DNA of 64,000 nt. It comes from Mesostigma viride (Eukaryota > Streptophyta > Mesostigmatophyceae > Mesostigmatales > Mesostigmataceae). The notes under the pieces were generated by a model that was given only the letters and a program-made list of their open reading frames with translations, was not told the origin of the DNA and made no database searches. The DNA is taken from contig RPFO01000406.1 of NCBI GenBank assembly GCA_009746045.1, positions 699,501-763,500 on the forward strand. Reading direction: 5' to 3'. Of this stretch, positions 24,592 to 61,570 are shown in pieces (within the stretch, counting starts at the first letter, position 1; the number at the start of each line of letters is the position of its first letter). A program made the translations under genes and the position numbers.

Positions 24592-26113
24592 TTACACCTT
24601 GTTTGATTTCTCCCGGTTGCACTTGAGATGCAGCAGCTGCATGTTGTCGTAATCTGTCGTGCCTCCTTCGGACCACGGTTTCTTATGGTCCCCAGCATTG
24701 AAGCAGATCTACATTCGGTCCGAGAGCCTTCTCGCACCACAAACATAGCGCACTCGGCCCCATGCATTCCAGCCACTTTTTCTTCAACGCTCGGGAAAAC
24801 AGGCGGGGGCCTCGCTTGGCTTCATCCTCCGGCTCCATGACCTGCCGCACGGCTGCGTTGGTTGCGTCAATGCGCGCCCCAACTTTCTTGACCGCGAGTG
24901 ACTCAAAGGCCTCATGTGCGGTCAGCTGAAGCAGGGCCTCCCTCAACTCCTCCGCGCGCTTCAACAGCTGCTCTTTCTTGTACTGGCCCTCGCAGCCGCT
25001 GAAGACGTGCATGTGCACATCCCACAAGCCGGCCTCGATCTTGCCCTGTTCCGACGTTGACTTGTTGATGGAACGGAAAGGTAAGGCGCCGTCTTTCTTC
25101 GCAAAGACCTTGTTGGCAACCTCAAGTGCGTCCAAGGCCAGCGACTGCATCGCCTTCAACTGTTTCTTCAACCGGGCTTCTGGGAGCTTGTTTCGCCGAC
25201 GCATATCCTCGAGGATGGCCGAGTTCAGCGGCCGGCTCTTGAGGTTCATCACCCCAATGTCCTGGGCCAGGAAAAACCGAGCCAGCAGCTCCTGTTCCTT
25301 CATGTGAACAGCCGGTACATGCGTGCCCATGGCTTCGCGCATCTCCTGATGCATCACGAGCTCGTTCAGCAGCTTCGTGTACTCACCGAACGACAGCGCC
25401 TGCCGAAGCTCCTGCATTTTCATGACAGTGCCACCACCCTGTATCTTGGAGAAATAGATCAGCATCTGTTCCAGAGGCCAGTCTGCAGGGATGGTTTCCA
25501 CCTTGACACGGGCTCTCAAGATCATCTGTCTCTGGTCTTCATCAAGATCCTGAAATGATTTGCCATTGAGCAACGGCAAGTGCTTTAGTTTACAGAGGGT
25601 AAAGCCCGCTTTCTCCCACCCGCTGTTGTCTGGCACTGCCCTGCTCAGCTCCAATGGCGATTTTCCCTCCACAAACAGCCTTAAGCTCATCAGGCGCTGC
25701 TGGCCATCCACGACATTTCGCTTGAGGCGGACGTCCATCTGACAAAAACGGACTTCGGGCATAGGCATGTCAAGCAGCAAGGTTTCCACCAGATCGGATG
25801 CCTGCTCCCGTTTCCATACGTAGCCTCGCTGGAAGAACGGTGTGAGTTCGAGATACCCCTTATTTACACTATCCAAAATGGACTCGAACACCTCGTTGCT
25901 CGTCTGTGGTTGGGTCAGTGCCTGCGGTGGTTTGCTGCCAAACTGAATGCCGTCCGCGTCGTCGTCATCGTCGTCTTGATTGCTGTCCTCTGACCCAGGA
26001 ACCTCGCCTTCTGTCATGCTGCCGCGCGGTATTTGGACAGCGCGGATGCTTTTTCTGGCAGCAAGCTCACACATGTACAGCCGCGGGCGTGGCTCAGGCC
26101 CTAGTTTAGACAT
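24592..26113 (-). CDS. DUF262/HNH (GmrSD-like) nuclease-type protein, one frameshift
   Basis: The N-terminal DUF262 domain (roughly residues 55-200) shows [20 protein letters not shown] and [11 protein letters not shown], the family's hallmark motifs. In bacterial GmrS-type proteins this domain binds nucleotide and is linked to DNA cleavage. The C-terminus has an HNH-type finger: CLWC, then [28 protein letters not shown], ending at the stop 24592-24594. The frame shifts by one base around 24695-24705, between LGPN and the GDH motif; without it a protein of about 506 residues results. The start ATG (26113-26111) begins MSKLGPEP. An upstream ATG in the same frame lies in retrotransposon sequence and is unlikely to be native. 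An acidic run (DDDDDD) lies near residue 50. The LTR element's 5-bp target duplication ends 1 bp before the ATG, separating the gene from its former 5' flank at 33972 onward. The gene has no intron and resembles bacterial or large-virus genes, so transfer is possible but unproved. Confidence 0.75.
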
Positions 26114-26119
26114 GGCGTT

Positions 26120-26738
26120 AGTTGAATGAGAGTTTACCACCGAGGGAATCCATGGCTCTTGCAGGAAAGTTGCCTTTATTATAATGAGCAAACACAGACG
26201 TAAGTCACGTCAAGTCCGAGACTGCACGTAGCACAGACGACAGCTGGGTCGTTATGCCAAGAGAGCGTGCACGCAAGAGCTAGCGCCCCAGTGTGACCAA
26301 GTCACTCATATAGCTTGCTAGGGACGCGTCCAAGTATTCAGCTGTACTGTCACAGCTGAACTGTCAATCAATTGATTACACAGACTCTGGCACGCCTTTG
26401 GCGCGCAGATCTATCAATTGTCCATACGGCTAGTCCTGTGGACCTATCCGTACACTAGTCAGCATCAATTGTCTCATAGGTCCTGGCGCGCTACAGTGCG
26501 CCTACCTATCAATTGACCATCAAGTCCTGTACAAGTCCTGTCAACGTCCTGCGGACTATCAAAGTGACACTTGTACATCCTGTGTCCGTACGCGCCCACA
26601 GTGGCGCGCCGGGTACTGTCGGCACAGCCTAGGAAACGTCATAACTTTTACGTTCCTTAACCAAATGAGGCGTTCAAGGTGCCGTTGGAAAGAGCGTAAC
26701 AATCTCTATCCATCTAACGTAAATCCTTTACGTTAACT
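26120..26738 (-). repeat. 3' LTR
   Basis: The 619-bp repeat starts AGTTGAATGAG and ends CGTTAACT on the plus strand, so its ends are a short inverted repeat AGTT/AACT instead of the usual TG/CA. It contains several short GGCGCGC and ATCAATTG motifs. It adjoins the DUF262/HNH start codon, so LTR sequence now forms that gene's immediate upstream region. Confidence 0.9.
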
Positions 26739-33352: not shown

Positions 33353-33966
33353 AGTTGAATGAGAGTTTACCACCGAGGGAATCCATGGCTCTTGCAGGAA
33401 AGTTGCCTTTATTATAATGAGCAAACACAGACGTAAGTCACGTCAAGTCCGAGACTGCACGTAGCACAGACGACAGGGTCGTTATGCCAAGAGAGCGTGC
33501 ACGCAAGAGCTAGCGTCCCGGTGACCAAGTCACTCATATAGCTTGCTAGGGACGCGTCCAAGTATTCAGCTGTACTGTCACAGCTGAACTGTCAATCAAT
33601 TGATTACACAGACTCTGGCACGCCTTTGGCGCGCAGATCTATCAATTGTCCATACGGCTAGTCCTGTGGACCTATCCGTACACTAGTCAGCATCAATTGT
33701 CTCATAGGTCCTGGCGCGCTACAGTGCGCCTACCTATCAATTGACCATCAAGTCCTGTACAAGTCCTGTCAACGTCCTGCGGACTATCAAAGTGACACTT
33801 GTACATCCTGTGTCCGTACGCGCCCACAGTGGCGCGCCGGGTACTGTCGGCACAGCCTAGGAAACGTCATAACTTTTACGTTCCTTAACCAAATGAGGCG
33901 TTCAAGGTGCCGTTGGAAAGAGCGTAACAATCTCTATCCATCTAACGTAAATCCTTTACGTTAACT
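33353..33966 (-). repeat. 5' LTR
   Basis: The 614-bp direct repeat matches 26120-26738, lacking CTG in the ACAGCTGGGTC stretch and two bases near GCGTCCCGGTGACC. On the minus strand this is the promoter-bearing copy. The target duplication GCGTT follows at 33967-33971. Confidence 0.9.
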
Positions 33967-50910: not shown

Positions 50911-53900
50911 ATGACGCCTTGTACAACCATCCTCCCCGTAAATGCGGCCCTGGTTTGTCCTCGGGCGACTCAGGCGGATGTCTCTCCGTCGTCGCAAGGT
51001 CAATTTCTGTCCGGCATTCGGCTGTCGCCCCGTGCATTCCGGGCGCTGCCGTCTGCCGTCGCCCGCTCGTCGGTTCGCGTGAGCGCGGCTGCGAACAATA
51101 TGGATGGTCTTAATAAGTACAGTGGCCGCATTACGCAGCCAAAGTCACAGGGCGCATCACAGGCCATGCTGTATGCCACTGGCCTCAAGGAAGAGGACAT
51201 GAACAAACCGCAAGTCGGAATTTCCTCTGTCTGGTATGAAGGAAATTCCTGCAACATGCACCTTTTGGGCCTGTCTGAGGCCGTGAAGGAAGGTGTGAAG
51301 GTGAGTCCTTTCGACTCTATTGTAGTCGACGTTACGTGTCAATTATAATGGCCATGATTTCTCGACGCCACGCGCGAATCATGGAAGCAGGCATCGCGCG
51401 TGTGTAGACACGCATGGCTGCGTTATTCAAATCATCGTGCATCCTATTCGTTTTCGATAGAGCGTATGCCAGGCTAACTCGGAGATAACCGGTAGGTTAA
51501 GATAATATTTTTTTCCGGTACAAGTAGGAAGGGCAATTTTGCTGACTTACATGAAGGGTTTGCCTGGAGGAGCGGAGGCAGGGGGGATTTTGCCACCGCT
51601 GCAATGCCTTCAGCACGTCATCCCGCCTTTAAATGAGGCGATAGTTATCAATCGCTCTGTTACTAGCAGGTTTATGTAGTGGTAATGCTGATAGCCTATT
51701 TCTATGAAATAACAGTGGCCCATGCAATCTTTTTCTCTTGCGCGATGGGTCCTGTATTCTCCAGAGTCAGGCCTATATATATATATATATATATAACTAG
51801 TCAATCGTTGGGCAAACGTGAGCGATGTTTTGTTATCCCTAACATCTGGGGCCCCACCTTGCACGTGTTATAAGTGCAATCACCTTGGCAACTTCCCAAC
51901 ATCTCCTCCTTCAAATTTCCAACGTGTTCACCCATCGGGGATGAATCACACCACGCTGCCCACACATGCGCCCGCACACCTGCAACCTCTTCCCCGCCCC
52001 CCCCCCCCTGGGCGCACCCATGTACTTACGTGTCCGCCACCGCCCCCTCACGCACTTGCACGTCTGGCCCCCCTGCGCATGCCTGCAATTCTTCCCACCC
52101 ACCCCCAGGCGGCCGGCATGGTCGGCTTCCGCTTTAACACCATCGGTGTGAGCGACGGCATCTCCATGGGCACGGACGGCATGTGCTTCTCGCTGCAGTC
52201 GCGCGACCTGATCGCCGACTCAGTGGAGACGGTCATGGGCGGGCAGTGGTACGACGCCAACATCTCGCTGCCAGGTACGGGGCCATCGCGTGCTAGTCAC
52301 GTGGTCAAAGCAAGAGCAGGCACATGAACATGAACAGAAGCAGAAACAGAAACAGAAACAGAAACAGAAACAGAAACAGAAACAGAAACAAACGCAAGAA
52401 GAAGAACGCAAACAAACCAGAAAAGAGAAACACAAACAGCAGCACAGAGGCGCCAACACAATAACAAACGCTTACCATTGTGGGGAGGTGGTGGCTACCA
52501 ATATACTCTACATGCCCATTCGTACTGTAATGATGTGCCCATCAGTTTAGAGGGATGCATACTTTTTCTTTGGTTTGCAACGTTGACACTGCACCCCCTA
52601 AGCCCCCTGCCGCCCCCCCGCACGATTGTCAGTTTCTTGCCCTGCCCCCCAGTGCACATCTCCCTCTTTGTCTATTCCCGCCCTCTTGCTTTTCCCCCCT
52701 GTTTTGCCATCCCTCTCATTTTCCTTCCCTTAAACCTTTGCTTACCCGTCCCCCGTTTCGTATCCCTCACGCTTCTCTTACCCTCCCCCTTCACGCATAC
52801 CCTCCTCTACCCTACCCTCTCGCCCCTCTTTCCCCCTTCTCCCCCCTCTTATACCCCTGCCCCCCCCCGCGCTTCTTTACCCCCTCCCACCTGTACTTCC
52901 CTCCTCCCCCTTTTGCCCTTTCTCCTCCCCCCCCCCCCCCCCAGGCTGCGACAAGAACATGCCCGGCGTGCTCATGGCCATGGGCCGCCTCAACCGCCCC
53001 TCCCTCATGATCTACGGTGGGACCATCAAGCCCGGCATGGGTGCCGCGGGCAAGCCCCTCGACATCGTGTCCGCGTTCCAGTCGTACGGAGAGTTCATCG
53101 CGGGCCGCATCAGCGAGGAGGAGCGCGTTGACATCGTGCGGCACTCGTGCCCCGGCTCGGGCGCGTGCGGCGGCATGTACACGGCCAACACCATGGCCAG
53201 CGCGATCGAGGCCATGGGCATGACGCTGCCGTACAGGTGAGGGGGATGGGAAAGGGCTGGTGACATGGGCTGGGGGCATGGCGCTGCCGTGTAGGTTGAG
53301 GAACAAGGGGTAGGGAAAAGGGGGAAAGAGGATGAGGGGGGGAATAAGGTGGATATGGGCATGGCGCTGCCATACAGGTGAGGTTGGGTCAGGGTTGGTC
53401 GGGTGAAAGGAAGATGAGGGGTGGGGACGAAAGGACGAGAAGGGGACGGGGAATAAGACATGACGCTGCCACTGAGGTGGGGGTTTGGGGAAAAGGAAGC
53501 AGAAGGGGAGGTCATGACCTTGCCGTGCAGGTGGGTGACAGCTGACGGGAGGTTGGGGTCTGTTGCCCACGTCGGCCCCCCCCTGTAGCCCTCCAACCCT
53601 CCAACCCTCAACCCAAGCCCCCTGCCCCGCCAAATCCTCCATCAGCATTCCCTCTCCTACCCTTTCCCTTTGAACCCCCCTATCTCCCCCCAAGTCCCCC
53701 AAGCCCCTCCCCCCACCCTTCATTCCACACGCGCTCCCAACACCGCTCTCCCCGAACCCCCCTGTCCTCCTTTCAACCCCCCCCCAGCTCGCCCATTCCT
53801 ATTCAGACCCATATCGCAGTGAACCCTTCTTACTTTTCCCACCCCTTCTTCACATTTCAACTGTCTGAACTTCTTGTAATCCTTTATACCCCCTTGTAAC

Positions 53901-56900
53901 CCCATCTCGTCCATCCCTACTCTGACCTATATTTTTTTTATCCCCTGTATCTTCCCACCCCCTTGGACCCCCCTCCCCCCTCCTTCCCCCTTCTCAGCTC
54001 GTCCATCCCCGCGGAGGACCCGCTGAAGCTGGACGAGTGCCGCCAGGCCGGCAAGGCCATCCTGGAGCTGCTGCGCCGCGACATCAAGCCGCGCGACATC
54101 ATGACCAAGCAGGCGTTTGAGAACGCGATGACCCTCATCATGGCCCTGGGGGGGTCCACCAACGCGGTGCTGCACCTGATCGCCATGGCGCGGTAGGTAT
54201 ACACCGGGGCTGTATTTCTATAATGATATAGTAACATACGGCACCTGATCGCCATGGCGCGGTAGGCGTACATCAAATACATATCATACGGCACCGGTCA
54301 CTGTGTTGGTAGTATATCATCCCCCCCACAAGGTTGTATGGTGGGTCCGTTAGTGCGGTGCTGAACCTGATAGGCATGGCGCTATGGTCTGTATGCGCGG
54401 TAGGTAAACACCGTGTTAGTATATATACATGGCTGTGGTCACTGTATCGATAGGTGCATTGTATCGGTAGCAATGCTGTCTCCACAAGCGTCTCTAAAGC
54501 ATTCTATCACCCCATGGGGTATCGTCATGTGTCCGCGTCGGAGATTGCTGCACCTGATTGCTGATTGCGCGGTACCTGCGGCAGTGGGCACCCTATCGTT
54601 GGCATACCTGACACCGTCGCCCCATCGCCCTCTCCTGCACCTTTTTCCTTTACCCCGATTCATGCGACGAGAATTTCTCAGCTTTCCACACACTCATTCT
54701 CGTTTCTGACGAATCCATCTTTGGATCCTTGTTTGAAACCTATCTCTTATTCTGGCCCTGCCCCTCCCCCCTTGCTTCTCACCAATGAGCCCCACCTGCC
54801 TTCTCCCCATCGCCTCACGCCACCCCTCTCCCTCCCTAACTTCCTCAGTCTACCCCCATCAGCATGGTGGGCGTAGGTACACCCTTTGTAAGCTTCTCGC
54901 ATCTTCCTGTATCCTCCCCACTTGCTCCTGGCTCATCCCTACCTTCAAATACATAACTATCGCCCTCTTGTCTCTCCCTGTCGCTCCCCGTCTTCACCCC
55001 CCCTCGCGGTGGGCGTGGCACAGCCCTTTAGCAAGCTCTTTCCTTCCATCTGCATCCAACCTCGCCACTTTTTGTTTTCCCGCCTAGCTGACCATTCCCA
55101 CCATGCTTCTCGCTTATGCCTCACGTGTCTACCCCTCTCCTTACCTCCATCTTCCTCCCTGGTTCCCCCCCCCCCCGACCCCCCCCAGTGCGGTGGGCGT
55201 GTCGGTGACGATCGAAGACTTCCAGACCATCAGCGACCGCGTGCCCTTCATCGCGGACCTCAAGCCCTCGGGCAAGTACGTGATGGAGGACTTGCACAAG
55301 GTGGGCGGCACGCCGGCGGTGCTCAAGTACCTCCACTCCAAGGGCCTCATCCACGGCAACTGCATGACAGGTGGGCCATGACACCTCTGCTGCTTTTGTT
55401 TCTTCTTTTTGGCAGTGCACCGGGTAGGACAGGGCCTACATTAAGTGTAGGAGTGATTCAAACCTGGAATCCGAGGCGACGTTGCTTGGGCTAGTTTTAG
55501 GCGGGTGATGTGGCTCTGGAGGAAGATGAACTCGGGGTGAGTAAATAGCACCCGTGGCTAGCCGTGCATCAGGGCCTAGGATTTTGAGCGCGTTGAGGGA
55601 GTCATTATGGTCTTATTAACTATGCATGTGGGAAACTAAGTAATTGGAACCTTGAACAAAAGCCATGACTGCAAGCCATGACTGGGAGCCATGACTGCAA
55701 GCCATGACTGCAAGCCACGACTGCTAAACGAAAAGAAGAAGCAATCCCAGAAATGAATCGGGGGGGGGGGGCGTGGGTCAGGGTTATGGCAAAGAAAATG
55801 CACAAGTAGAATGTTTGAGGATGGGACGCGCAGAGCGCGAATGGCTGTACGCGCGCTCCCCTAACTGGTCTCTTCCCATGTGCCAGTTTATGGGCATGAA
55901 TTTGCCATGTGACATCCTTTACCATCGTCATCCGTGATGCATAAACCCTTTAGGCGATGCCTGGGCGAGCCTTGTCTCTTACGGGCGGCAACTCCATTGC
56001 GATTGCCATGCACATACGCTAGTAAGCATGCTCGCTCATTTGAGCAATATCCCAGCATTGCATCAATCGCTGCTGTTTTCCTGGCTCGGCATTGTTGGGT
56101 TTTGATGCACGCTGCTTTGCTGTCCATGCTGTGCCACCGATTGCCACATCGCAGTGACTGGCAAGACCCTGGCAGAGAACCTGGCCGGCTGCCCACCGCT
56201 GTCACCAGGACAGGTGCGTGAGCTTGACCCTTTTCTGCTTGTCGCTGTAGCGACAATCATGGCTGCTTTGTTGGGGGAGGGTTGGTACTGCACTGCATGT
56301 GGGCACCTTCGGGCTGTCTGTGATAGCGACACATGATGGTGAAGTTCAGATAACATACCGCCAGGGGGAGAATGGTTTCACGATTGCAGATCAGGTGGTC
56401 AAGATTTTATTTAGTCTGCATGCCGTGGTAAACAAGCAACGAAAGGCATGCGCTTGCTGTGGTTTCTAACGGATCGTGTTATAGCTTGGCATGCATGCAT
56501 GCATGCATGCATGTTCCGCTACGGTGCACCCTTTCCTCGCCTAGCAAACTGATCAACAAAGGTATCTGTCGCAACTTCCGTGCTGGCATGCCGCTGCGGT
56601 TTGCTCCCTTTCCTTTCCCCTGTGGCACCTCCTGCCACGGACACCTCCTGGCTGGCCGCACGCCTGTATGGGCTGGCCCCTTGCATGCTTATCTTCCCTT
56701 GCGTGTGTGTGCGCGCCGGCTTCCATCATCCCTATTGTGTTCATATTTGTGCCTTGCTTGTGTGCGCGCGCCGGCTTCCATCATCCCTATTGTATTCATA
56801 TTTGTGCCTTGCTTGTGTGCGCGCGCCGGCTTCCATCATCCCTATTGTATTCATATTTGTGCCTTGCTTGTGTGCGCGCGCCGGCTTCCATCATCCCTAT

Positions 56901-59900
56901 TGTATTCATATTTGTGCCTTGCTTGTGTGCGTGCCGGCTTCCATCATCCCTATTGTATTCATATTGTGCCCACACACGCGCCGCCTCACATCGTCCATGT
57001 CCATGTTCATGTCATTGTGCCCGCACGTTTGCCGCAGTCCATTCAGGCAGTCATCCAGGCGCTGGGTGCCTTCCTGCGTCCTCCCCCGCCCCCCCCCCCC
57101 CCCAATATTCACTTCCTATTGCAACCTTCCTATCGATTTCCTATACCAACCTATCCGCTTCCAATACCAACCTTCCTTTTCACTTCCTACATCAACTGTC
57201 CTTCCTCTCCTCTGCATCTGTCCGTGTCCACCTCTGTGTCTGTCCGTGTGCTGTCCTCCTGTGTGCCCATGTCCATGCTCGCTGCCCTCACTCACATGCC
57301 GTCATCACCAGCGGTCATTTAGATGCGGGGCGCTTCCCTGCGTTGCCCGATGTCCACTTTCCATTTTCCATTTCCCGTACTTGCTGAACAAACTGCACTG
57401 TTCTATACATAGTAATATACTGACTGTACTGGCTAACTGTTCTATAAATTGTCATATACTGACTGTACAAGCTAACTGTACCAACTGTACCTTCTCCCCT
57501 GCATGTGTCCGTGCTTGCTGCCTCGTGCCCATGCCATCATTCATCACAGGCGGTCATTCAGACGCTGGAGAACCCGATCAAGGCGACGGGCCACTTGCAG
57601 ATCCTGTACGGCAACCTGGCCAAGGAGGGATCCGTGGCCAAGATCACGGGCAAGGAGGGCCTGCTGTTCAAGGGTGGGTGGTGTACCTTAGTACAGCTCA
57701 AGAGTGATTTTATCGATGGGCAGCTGGGTGTGCTTTGCGCCAAGATCACGGGCAAGGAGGGCCTACTGTTCAAGGGTGGGTGAAGGCGTTGTTGATGTGC
57801 CCATGGTGCTCTCAGTTGCAGGGTAGTAGTCAGCGCCAAGGTCACGGCCATGTGGGGCATGCACTTCAAGGGTGGGATACTGACCTGGGTTTGCTTGGTA
57901 ACCTACTCATAGGTGTGATTGGTATGACCTACTGACAAGGAGGGGATGCAAGCACAACATTTGCACGCCAGCAGGATGCAGCATTTGTTGTTTTACATTG
58001 TTTGGAAGGTTGTTCTAATTTCTTGTCTACCCAAGCACGCTCATGTCATCTTGCTATGGTCCTCTCGCAGTTTTCAGGAAGCCAGAAGTTTCTATTTTAC
58101 TGTCCTGTGCTAACATCTCACTACTTTGGTATTGGTATTTTATTTTTTTCCCCACGCCGCGTCCGCCTTTGTGCAGGCTTTGCGCGCGTGTTTGACTGCG
58201 AGGAGGACATGCTGGAGGCGCTCGCCAAGGACCCAATGTCGTTCAAGGTGGGAGGGGGGATGAAGAGGAAAGGTGGAATAGATGTAGGTGCCCTTGCGAA
58301 GGACTTGATGTCCTCCAAGGTGGGCGTAATACAGATGCATGCTTGTTCATTGAATCGTGCTAATACACTGAATAATACTACTTGACAAACTATGCCTCGT
58401 GCGCAAGCAAGCAAGTGTTTGCTCGTGTCTCCGGCTTGGGAGAGAGAGAGGATACAGGGAAGGTACAGGTACACCTGCCACGATTGTAGAAACTGGGCGC
58501 ACCCTAGGCATCTGCAGCATCATATTAACTACTATGAAGGCAGCTACTAAAACAAGGAAAGCACCAGGGCATGGGCTCAGGGATAAATAACTCCGTGCGA
58601 ATAAAGGTAAAGTAATGGGCTCTTCATGCTTGATGCCACCACCTAAGTTCCATCGTGCTTCGCCTCGATGGTTTTCCCAATTCTTCCCGCCCCTGCAGGG
58701 CTCCGTCATCGTGATCCGCTACGAGGGACCCAAGGGAGGCCCAGGTGAGCTGTCATGGGTACTTCTTCATACACTACTCAACGTATTATTTACTGCGTGC
58801 CGTCCCGGGTGCTCTTTCCTCTTGCATTTTAAGCAGTCATACCCCACATACCCATGTCCCCTACCCCCCCAAAAAAATTAAGGGGCCAGTGTGGCCTAGC
58901 CTGTGGGAGGGTACTGCCGCCTGGTGCTGTTTTGGAACCTGTCCCAGCCATGGATAGGTTTGTGAATAACAAGTTTTACAGCCAGCACGGTGTGTCCGCA
59001 TGAAGGGGACATGGATCCATCTGCCACTCGTGAGCTGCTCATTCCGTTGGGACACCGACAAGTGGGAGATTTCTTGGCTATCTCAGTTTCCTAAAGGGTA
59101 GTTTCCTTACGCAGGGATGCCAGAGAAAAACAAACAAGGCATCAACTAACAAATCACTGTGCTCTTGGCGACCGCTTCTTTGCCTATGTGTTGGTTTCCT
59201 CACACGGCAGGCATGCCGGAGATGCTCACGCCCACCAGTGCGGTCATGGGAGCCGGTCTGGGCAAGGTAAGGCGGCCGACCCCCTCGCTGTCCTCACGGA
59301 TTTGAATCATTGCCCTTCTGCTGCTCAATGGTTACATAGGCATCGGCATTTGCCTAAAGGCTAAGGCTTTGCAAGGCAGCCCCTTCTAAAAGGGGGCTGG
59401 CTCGCGATAATGTTGGGCCATTGCGGGCATGTCGGTTCCTCATATTGAAATCCATCCCCGTGGTTGCGATTGATATATAACTTATCGACCAGTGAAGCAT
59501 TTGGAGCGGCATGTGGTCGTCCATTAGGTGTCTCTGCCAGTTCATTCGGCACGCTATTAATTCCTTTTTCTGTGTTATAATTCCTTGATCTCCATTTTCA
59601 CAATTCCTTGATCTCCATTTTCACAATCAATTCACTAAGTAACGATGCATGTGCCCATTATAAGACTACAAGAACTTTACCCTTCTCCCCCCCTCATATC
59701 CTCTCCATAGTGCTGCTCCTCCCCCCATGCACCCAACCACGCGTCCACCCAACCACGCCAACCCACCGCCGCACGACAAGACTGTGCGCTCGTCACGGAC
59801 ACATCATTGTGGCTTATGTGCTATTGCTGTCAACACTTTTCCCTACACACACCCACACCGCCCACACATTACCCCGAGCCAGCCCACAGGACAGCGCGAT

Positions 59901-61570
59901 CATGACGGACACATCATTGCTATTGAAATGTTATTGCTGTCATGATTCCCGTTACCCACTCTGCCCCCACCTCAACCCCCACCGCACCCCCCCCATCCCC
60001 CCCATCAGGACTAAGGGCTCACATCACAGACACATCGTAGAGACTGACATGCGATTCCCCCTATTACCCCTGCCCCCGTCCCCCCCATCCCTCACCCACC
60101 ACCACCCACCACCACCACCACACCACCCCCACCACCACCACCACCACCACCACCCCCACCACCACCACCACCACCACCACCACCACCACCACCACCACCA
60201 CCACCACCACCACCACCACCACCACCACCACCACCACCACCACCACCACCACCACAGGACTGCGCGCTCATCACGGACGGCCGCTTCTCGGGTGGCTCGC
60301 ACGGGTTCGTGGTCGGCCACGTGACGCCCGAGGCGCAGGTAGGGAGGGGCAGCTTGCATGCCACAGGCCCTGTGCTTTTATTTTAGTTGTCGCTGCATCG
60401 GTTGCACTGCCTGGGTGGGAGAGGTCTATGGGATAGGCGAGGGAAAGGGAAACCGATGCTGGCGTATCAGCTGGTGATGAGCAGATGCCAGGCTAGCTAT
60501 TATGATGTCCATACTTCATTGGTGCGGCTCCTGCTGCCATCTGGCCTTGATTGGTGCCATGAACACCGACCCGAAGGCAATGGGTTTTTTCAAGGGACAG
60601 AATGGCGGCTTGGACATCAACACAGCGTGATCGAGGGGTTTTCAACAAGGGGTCTGCTCCTCTTGGGACAATGTACTCAAACACATTAAATGCTATCTTG
60701 CCGTGGGAAGGTTAGCTGTGACATTACTACTATCACATGATGGTTGAAACGGGGGTCATCATGTTCTCATCGCGTCCATGGCTATAGCTGAAATTCGCCC
60801 CAGCTTTTCGATGGATTTCGGTGCCATGTGTCTGCCATGCAATCCAAGGACCACATCCACCTTGACTGAACTGCCCTTTTTTCTCTTACTGGCTGGCCCT
60901 TGCCCGTGAATGTAGAAATGCACACGCTTCTTAGTGCATGCTCACATTTGCCGCCCGCCATCTCATGGCACATCCCCTGCAGGTGGGGGGCAACATTGCG
61001 CTGGTCAAGGATGGTGACATCATCACGATCGACGTCGTCAAGCGGCTGATGGACGCTGACGTCAGCGAGGAGGAATTTGCGCGCCGCCGCAAGAGCTGGG
61101 TGGCACCGCCGTACAAGGCGACCCGGGGCACGCTCTTCAAGGTCAGAAGTCCTATAAGTAGGACAGGTGGTCATTGTAGATATTAGAACATAGAATATAC
61201 TGCTTATATACTAGTATTTTTATATAGACAATTATCTTGTATATGCTGGCGGTGTGCTGCTAGTAATGTGACACATCCATTCTAGGCCATCTGATGTTAA
61301 TGGTCCTGCATGGCATCCAAGTGGGTAGGTATTCCATCGTCAACGTGACTTTGCCAGCCTAAGGCATCTGCTTTCAATTGTTTTGTAGCTCACACCTGAT
61401 GTTCTTACCTCTGCCCCCTTCCTGTTGTGTACCTGTTGCCCCCCTACCCCGCCTCCTTCCCCATCTTCCCCACCTACCCACCCACCCAACCCTGCATCAT
61501 GGCCTTACCCTGTGAGCAGTACATCAAGAATGTGAAGAACGCGTCAGAGGGCTGCGTCACCGACGAATAA
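50911..61570 (+). CDS. ILVD: Dihydroxy-acid dehydratase, plastid precursor (EC 4.2.1.9)
   Basis: The enzyme converts 2,3-dihydroxy-isovalerate and 2,3-dihydroxy-3-methylvalerate to the 2-oxo acids for valine, isoleucine and leucine synthesis. Exons: 50911-51300, 52109-52274, 52945-53236, 53998-54192, 55189-55370, 56155-56213, 57550-57673, 58177-58247, 58699-58744, 59211-59266, 60258-60338, 60983-61141 and 61520-61570. All introns are GT-AG, phases agree at each junction, and the total is 1872 nt or 623 residues, normal for plant enzymes. Residues 1 to about 58 look like a plastid transit peptide (Ser/Arg/Ala-rich, ending SSVRVSA). Three conserved Cys (114 in GNSCNMH, 187 in GCDKNMPG, 260 in [14 protein letters not shown]) fit the [2Fe-2S] cluster ligands. 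[10 protein letters not shown] (534-543) holds the likely catalytic Ser538. The protein ends ASEGCVTDE, as in plants. Exon 1 is less GC-rich at third positions than later exons. Confidence 0.95.
51773..51795. repeat. (TA)n microsatellite in dehydratase intron 1
   Basis: About eleven TA units in the 808-bp first intron. Confidence 0.9.
52333..52392. repeat. (CAGAAA)n microsatellite in dehydratase intron 2
   Basis: About nine CAGAAA units lie shortly after exon 2. Most of the following intron is strongly pyrimidine-rich and ends in a C17 run before the acceptor CAG at 52942-52944. Confidence 0.9.
53267..53540 (+). repeat. Decayed copies of the exon 3 end plus donor site, intron 3
   Basis: Exon 3 ends GGGCATGACGCTGCCGTACAG followed by GTGAGG. 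Similar stretches recur near 53272-53300 (CATGGCGCTGCCGTGTAGGTTGAGG), 53354-53384 (GGGCATGGCGCTGCCATACAG then GTGAGG), 53458-53483 (CATGACGCTGCCACTGAGGTGG) and 53512-53538 (CATGACCTTGCCGTGCAGGTGG). The second copy has only two changes over 27 bp. Spacing is about 60-100 bp. Confidence 0.8.
54236..54575 (+). repeat. Decayed copies of the exon 4 end plus donor site, intron 4
   Basis: Exon 4 ends CACCTGATCGCCATGGCGCG followed by GTAGGT. The same sequence stands at 54241-54265, followed by GTAGGC. A longer, more diverged copy lies at about 54335-54412 (GGTGGGTCCGTTAGTGCGG...AACCTGATAGGCATGGCGC...GCGCGGTAGGT). A third weak copy is at 54547-54573 (GCACCTGATTGCTGATTGCGCGGTAC). Confidence 0.8.
56703..56945. 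repeat. 55-bp tandem repeat in dehydratase intron 6
   Basis: Five units of 53-55 bp each contain GCGCGCGCCGGCTTCCATCA and TTCATATTTGTGCCTTGCTT. GCCGGC recurs at 56715, 56770, 56825, 56880 and 56933. The alternating GC start could adopt Z-form DNA. The overlapping reading frames in several phases come from the repeat. Confidence 0.95.
57041..57330 (+). repeat. Decayed copies of the exon 7 start, intron 6
   Basis: Exon 7 begins after CATCACAG with GCGGTCATTCAGACGCTGG. Related stretches lie upstream in the intron: ATTCAGGCAGTCATCCAGGC followed by GCTGGG at 57041-57066, and CATCACCAGCGGTCATTTAG followed by ATGCGGGG at 57303-57330. Confidence 0.55.
57637..57876 (+). repeat. Copies of the exon 7 end plus donor site, intron 7
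   Basis: The 44 bp at 57637-57680 (last 37 exon bases plus GTGGGTG) are repeated at 57739-57782 with one change. A weaker copy is at 57835-57876 (GCCAAGGTCACGGCC...TTCAAGGGTGGG). The second copy would keep the same donor and frame if used. Confidence 0.9.
58287..58326 (+). repeat. Decayed copy of the exon 8 end plus donor site, intron 8
   Basis: Exon 8 ends with GCGCTCGCCAAGGACCCAAT, then GTCGTTCAAG and donor GTGGGAG. The intron has GGTGCCCTTGCGAAGGACTTG, then ATGTCCTCCAAG and GTGGGCG at 58287-58326. Confidence 0.75.
60090..60255. repeat. (CAC)n microsatellite ending in the exon 11 acceptor
   Basis: About 160 bp of CAC units with a few CCC changes run directly into ACCACAG, the acceptor of exon 11. 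The pyrimidine tract normally found there has been replaced by the repeat. Long Trp- or Gly-only frames on the minus strand are by-products. Confidence 0.95.

Follow-up and report, generated by a model that had tools for sequence, protein, structure and literature searches.

New introns of Daphnia pulex carry direct repeats that are traced, in the accessible part of the report, to the repair of staggered double-strand breaks, and significant internal repeats are counted there in 55 of 90 new and 100 of 617 established introns (PMC4202315); the available part of a 2012 review mentions these repeats as well (PMC3488318). Tandem genomic duplication of AGGT-containing exon sequence, the Rogers model, is represented in the portions available to us by a potato RdRp case (PMC4974935) and a review (PMC3443670). 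A 2025 survey gives, in its accessible portion, direct repeats of 4–30 base pairs (bp; mean 11.4) near both borders of 213 introns (PMC11782384). Here we analyse a dihydroxy-acid dehydratase gene of Mesostigma viride (Streptophyta), contained in a window of 64,000 nucleotides (nt; positions 699,501 to 763,500 of contig RPFO01000406.1, assembly GCA_009746045.1), to which all coordinates refer unless a locus is named. Four of its introns hold direct, imperfect copies of the end of the exon just upstream, most of them running across the 5′ splice site (the donor), and the same pattern is found in other genes of this genome.

Copies of exon ends and starts in the dehydratase introns

The gene is intact. 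Its 623-residue product scores 760.5 bits as a whole protein against TIGR00110, above the curated cut-off of 618.15, and its top match among solved structures is 5ym0_A, a chloroplastic dihydroxy-acid dehydratase chain (950.7 bits), which we take to be the Arabidopsis enzyme. A search of the genome (440 Mb, 2243 contigs) with the protein returned 10 matches at E ≤ 0.001, all within this locus. The gene, the exons concerned and the copies of exon ends are as follows.

50911..61570, + strand: dihydroxy-acid dehydratase gene (ilvD-type), 13 exons, 623 amino acids, intact (gene model, TIGR00110 and 5ym0_A)
52945..53236, + strand: exon 3, source of the series of copies (ladder) in intron 3 (gene model)
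53277..53301, + strand: copy of exon 3 end and donor, donor offset 58
53355..53399, + strand: copy of exon 3 end and donor, offset 141, 81% identical over 48 aligned columns
53459..53496, + strand: copy of exon 3 end and donor, offset 240
53510..53533, + strand: copy of exon 3 end and donor, offset 294
53998..54192, + strand: exon 4, source of the intron 4 ladder (gene model)
54241..54272, + strand: copy of exon 4 end and donor, 30/32 identical, offset 69
54355..54382, + strand: copy of exon 4 end, ending 1 nt before the donor, offset 191
54395..54413, + strand: copy of the exon 4 donor region, 19 nt, offset 207
54546..54574, + strand: decayed copy of exon 4 end, donor offset 379
57550..57673, + strand: exon 7, source of the best copy (gene model)
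57739..57782, + strand: copy of exon 7 end and donor, sharp edges, preceded by 58 nt of unrelated interspace
57835..57876, + strand: older copy of exon 7 end and donor, 81% identical, its left edge falling on the same exon base (57637) as that of the 57739 copy
58177..58247, + strand: exon 8 (gene model)
58290..58324, + strand: copy of exon 8 end and donor, 77% identical, offset 72
60258..60338, + strand: exon 11 (gene model)

The original prediction, made from the letters alone, had described such copies in introns 3, 4, 7 and 8, and we recover four, four (one of them the 19-nt copy), two and one, respectively. Its best case, 57739–57782 against 57637–57680, stands at those coordinates with 43 of 44 bases identical. 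That the copies always cross the donor GT is true of most of them; the 54355 copy lacks the donor, and in the copy that ends at 53294 the donor is GTTGAG, a poor one. A plus-strand frame (57463–57783) runs on from exon 7 past the 57739 copy without meeting a stop, so that splicing at the donor after 57775 would lengthen the protein by 34 residues.

The own-intron scores of these four donor junctions (48 for exon 3, 54 for exon 4, 83 for exon 7 and 30 for exon 8) were reached by none of the 200 dinucleotide-preserving shuffles made per junction in this gene, and against its other introns the junction probes scored at most 27. At each of the other 8 donor junctions (12 in all) some shuffles did reach the score: 7 of 200 for exon 5 and likewise for exon 9, and at least 67 for the rest, which is chance level. 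When the whole gene was compared with itself by BLAST, all eight exon-touching repeats (E < 0.01) were direct and had their copy in the adjoining intron. Seven of them run across the junction, and one (54164–54191 to 54355–54382) ends 1 nt before it.

Copies are also found on the acceptor side, in introns 4, 6 and 10, where the original prediction had named none. In the corresponding shuffle test the scores of exons 5, 7 and 11 were reached by 0 of 200 shuffles, that of exon 4 by 1 and that of exon 10 by 7.

53756..53799, + strand: weak copy of exon 4 start and acceptor (1/200 shuffles reach its score)
54974..55017, + strand: copy of exon 5 start, in intron 4
57044..57065, + strand: copy of exon 7 start and AG, in intron 6
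57276..57329, + strand: copy of exon 7 start and the preceding intron sequence, in intron 6
59101..59126, + strand: weak copy of exon 10 start and acceptor (7/200)
59745..59800, + strand: copy of exon 11 start, in intron 10
59850..59910, + strand: copy of exon 11 start, in intron 10, followed by sequence resembling that after the 59745 copy
59967..60031, + strand: copy of exon 11 start, in intron 10

A (CCA)n run of about 160 nt (60096–60255) takes up the last part of intron 10 and extends to the acceptor of exon 11.

Recurrence in other genes and position of the copies

We analysed the dehydratase gene together with six chaperonin (PF00118) loci, i.e., seven genes with 48 introns, using a donor probe spanning −40 to +8 and counting a copy at a score of at least 28. 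The chaperonin loci were taken only from the places behind L025–L032 among the PF00118 matches. Splice sites in these loci, and in the HSP70 loci below, are predictions that combine family matches with splice-site scores; exons shorter than 45 nt or below 8 bits were dropped before introns were counted, and a few of the introns may therefore include one of these. The gene finder was applied to single-gene loci only, because long regions make it chain neighbouring genes; in the 200 kb adjoining the window, few strong exons were found.

Fourteen of the 48 donor junctions have a copy downstream in their own intron, against 0 of 48 when the introns are reversed and 1 of 802 comparisons with introns of other genes. 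For acceptor junctions with an upstream copy the corresponding figures are 5 of 48, 0 of 48 and 1 of 805. None of the seven genes lacks a donor case. Donor copies were also found at one of seven junctions of an eighth gene and in two of nine HSP70 donor windows (both within one gene), the latter chosen among 51 matches, with donors picked by score near the match end, of which weak ones may be wrong. These add 3 of 16 donors, giving 17 of 64 overall. The original prediction had named two outcomes that would count against it, similar matches in shuffled or unrelated introns and the lack of the pattern in other genes of the genome; neither was obtained. Chance or base composition as the source of the copies is ruled out by the shuffles, by the reversed and other-gene introns and by the positional profile given below. 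Four HSP70 loci (L035, L039, L040 and L041) have top-scoring donors (gtaatg, gtatgt, gttggt) that are unlike the G-rich donors elsewhere, and no copies were found there.

The position of the copied sequence was profiled by sliding a 48-nt probe over 55 introns of eight genes, skipping low-complexity probes (at most 11 on the donor side and 21 on the acceptor side). Downstream copies were found for 15/55 introns with the probe at −40..+7, for 20/55 at −28..+19 (the peak, 36%), for 10/47 at +56..+103 and for 10/177 at four deep-intron positions pooled (+200 to +391). Probes lying wholly in the exon found none (0/43 at −88..−41 and 0/29), and reversed controls gave at most 2 at every position. 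The mirror profile at acceptors peaks at 8/50. The copies lie on one side only: no donor probe had a copy in the upstream intron, and no acceptor probe had one in the downstream intron (0/48 each). Orientation is almost always direct (56 repeat rows, with 2 inverted), and direct repeats occur within introns too.

Copies had been said to weaken with distance, and as a tendency this holds. In 29 of the 34 donor copies, at 16 junctions (the five L029 5513 rows excluded, and some identities resting on 18–19 aligned bases), identity is negatively correlated with offset (Spearman −0.48, p = 0.008). Compared within a junction, 15 pairs of copies follow the trend and 4 go against it (permutation p = 0.025), and in 6 of the 8 junctions with several copies the one closest to the exon is also the most similar to it. 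The order is not kept in intron 3.

Possible routes of intron lengthening

Young copies take more than one form. At one chaperonin donor (L031) there is a perfect 38-nt repeat (31 nt of exon and 7 of intron) with a spacer of 2 bases, of the form X-AT-X, and the bases after the second copy differ from the spacer. L032, a second contig with the same gene, carries the X-AT-X repeat with one change. Over 3.4 kb of alignment the two differ by 67 substitutions in 2691 positions outside predicted exons and by 3 in 717 inside them. L032 (C1641) and L031 (C887) represent one chaperonin gene and are 96% alike. At one point the alignment is taken up again only after a gap of about 3.1 kb in L032, probably a large insertion. 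The 58-nt interspace before the 57739 copy is likewise unlike the sequence that follows the copy (p = 0.90 and 0.695 in two tests), as are those of the copies at L027 4925 (92%), L029 2898 (90%) and L025 5284 (85%), the last with a second exon-end copy 47 nt upstream. At another L029 donor, a 48-nt unit that includes the junction is repeated across about 490 nt, a full tandem array. Five of the 34 donor copies have interspaces too short to test; of the other 29, 17 have an unshared interspace (p > 0.05), including copies of 98, 92, 90 and 85% identity, and 12 a shared one (p ≤ 0.03; four belong to the L029 array, and others have earlier copies inside). Both structures, repeat-filler-repeat and tandem units, are therefore present.

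Direct repeats that flank an unrelated insert, as some of these do, might recall a mobile element, an introner or transposon making long target-site duplications. We consider this hardly credible: the interspaces vary in size, and intron 7, the one intron searched against the genome (skipping simple or very common words), matches only itself and the end of exon 7, with no near-identical copies at many unrelated genes. Unrelated interspaces would also fit old tandem ladders whose exon-like parts are held similar by gene conversion while the interspaces diverge. This would account for the shared left edge of the 57739 and 57835 copies, at 57637, and for the sharp end of their homology at about +7. 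We nevertheless find it quite improbable, as the homology available is only about 40 nt, X-AT-X is already sharp-edged with no need for conversion, and neighbouring copies differ greatly in identity (98% and 81%).

The copied segment nearly always contains splice-site sequence: 32 of the 34 donor copies reach the donor, and 29 of these 32 keep the GT, so the copies could possibly act as competing donors, which the original prediction had offered as an alternative. One could go further and propose that selection retains them as alternative 5′ splice sites, with a role in the regulation of expression or in adding peptide sequence, in line with the GT retention, with the 34 stop-free codons that the donor after 57775 would add and with dehydratase donor offsets that are a multiple of three in 8 of 11 cases (p = 0.009). 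This seems to us very improbable. With the L029 array counted as one entry, offsets are a multiple of three in only 3 of 20 cases in the other genes and in 11 of 31 overall (p = 0.47), so an in-frame constraint is not general, and in-frame copying as a rule is ruled out. GT identity (0.953) is not far above that of the exon part (0.878), and local alignments favour matched ends. Finally, since 5ym0_A aligns without an insertion at the exon 7/8 joint, it is the upstream donor of exon 7 that yields the conserved protein.

The reading we lean towards, with modest confidence, is that these introns lengthen by recurrent short-range duplication, apparently with a preference for the exon-donor boundary; the intron growth suggested by the original prediction agrees with this. 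A break with staggered ends near the junction, or an equivalent slippage, would be filled in and rejoined, each event duplicating about 25–48 nt, often with a filler of 2 to more than 100 nt between the copies. Splicing would keep to the original upstream donor and the duplicated exon end would become intron, so that the intron lengthens and the protein is unchanged. Later events beside the exon would push older copies downstream, where they would decay, so that the more distant copies of a ladder tend to be the older ones. Duplications lying wholly within the exon would alter the protein and are presumably lost, and wholly intronic ones occur too. We read short-range duplication near the donor, with the upstream donor kept in use, as explaining why copies are specific to their own exon, directly oriented and run across the junction, why exon interiors are not copied and why identity tends to fall with distance. 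The sharp X-filler-X form suggests staggered breaks that were filled in and joined, and the whole-unit ladders suggest that tandem duplication or slippage acts too.

The closest competitor would be whole-unit tandem duplication or slippage acting evenly over introns, with junction pairs looking special because they decay half as fast, the exonic original being conserved. The original prediction took the specificity of copies for their own exon to exclude ordinary tandem repeats. That argument fails, because any short-range duplication gives own-exon specificity and those going from exon to intron must cross the junction; both features follow from geometry alone. Even duplication also fits the direct repeats internal to introns, the similar rates over the first 100 nt, the 48-nt array and the interspaces shared by the intron 10 units and by 12 of 29 donor copies. 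It would predict near-equal identity between interspaces and copies, and several young separated copies (85–98%) have unrelated interspaces. In simulations of even duplication with decay and an unchanging exonic original, moreover, the observed combination of a 36% junction rate and a deep-intron rate of about 6% did not appear: junction rates were 12–26% overall, 12–16% when the deep rate was 7–11%, and higher only with a deep rate of 22–24%; a four-fold junction rate gave 42%. An even process thus does not easily explain the donor peak, nor the unrelated sequence between several young copies, and we regard it as unlikely on its own.

Several observations weigh against our preferred reading. 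The simulations were single runs per setting with parameters of our choosing, so the donor excess is argued for, short of proof. The value of 36% is the maximum over a number of overlapping probe positions, and −40..+7 gives 15/55. When the complexity filter is removed and whole introns are the target, probes just inside the intron find copies nearly as often as the junction probe (12/48 at +9..+56 and 13/48 at +57..+104, 3 reversed each, against 14/48 and 0 reversed), and the contrast is therefore between the first ~100 nt, junction included, and the deep intron; part of this near-junction signal is ladder copies matching one another. The shared interspaces, at 12 of 29 donor copies and between the intron 10 units, are what duplication of whole units would give. 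For untemplated joining, a 58-nt filler that matches nothing else in the genome is long. One allelic pair only was seen, and the loci beyond the seven genes gave 2 of 9 HSP70 windows, both in one gene, and 1 of 7 donors in the eighth gene.

It is possible, though rather doubtful, that the 5′ splice junction itself is a mutational hotspot: a feature linked to transcription or splicing, such as an R-loop over the G-rich beginning of the intron, would be nicked there, and its repair would leave a short duplication. In that case introns of this lineage would extend from the 5′ end in conveyor-belt fashion, and every intron would bear a dated record of how it grew. The way in which introns come by their lengths is mostly deduced from sequence that has decayed too far to be read, and a readable trace is kept here by 17 of 64 sampled donors; because coding selection conserves the source of the trace, both order and decay become measurable. 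Should the donor excess hold in a larger sample, the concentration of duplication at splice sites would become testable, and the copies would provide natural tests of how splicing chooses among near-identical donors.

Elsewhere in the window there are retroelement-like features. A 619-nt direct repeat, 99% alike (26120–26738 and 33353–33966), flanks a frame on the minus strand that matches a reverse transcriptase family (PF07727) at 26.8 bits, under the curated cut-off of 31.6, and the pair with its enclosed frame looks like a young long terminal repeat retrotransposon. The repeat at 26120 is adjoined by an open minus-strand frame (24686–26119) with a GmrSD restriction endonuclease N-terminal domain (PF03235, 67.3 bits), which is unexpected here. 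On the plus strand, 41109–42926 matches the reverse transcriptase family RVT_1 (39.7 bits) and lies among related retroelement-like fragments at about 5.3–44 kb of the window.

Comparison with described systems

No description of donor-centred ladders of exon-end copies was found among the matches listed, going by titles and the start of abstracts, with subscription literature mostly outside the scope of the search. The closest published description found is that of Daphnia pulex. There, in the accessible part of the report, introns likewise contain direct repeats that include terminal exon bases, and repeated events are proposed to lengthen introns passively; the exon-end repeats are 4–12 bp and lie at the opposite end of new introns, whereas those of M. 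viride are mostly about 20–47 nt, centred on the donor and often arranged in ladders (PMC4202315).

The 2025 survey, in its available portion, also reads direct repeats at intron borders as marks of break repair, but its repeats pair the two borders of an intron, whereas here one border is copied into the same intron (PMC11782384). The Rogers model, as far as the accessible portions of its sources describe it, shares with our case a local direct duplication that includes a splice site (PMC4974935, PMC3443670). The original prediction had mentioned this route of intron gain. In the Rogers model, duplication makes a new intron, whereas in M. viride the copies sit within introns that already exist and that would become longer.

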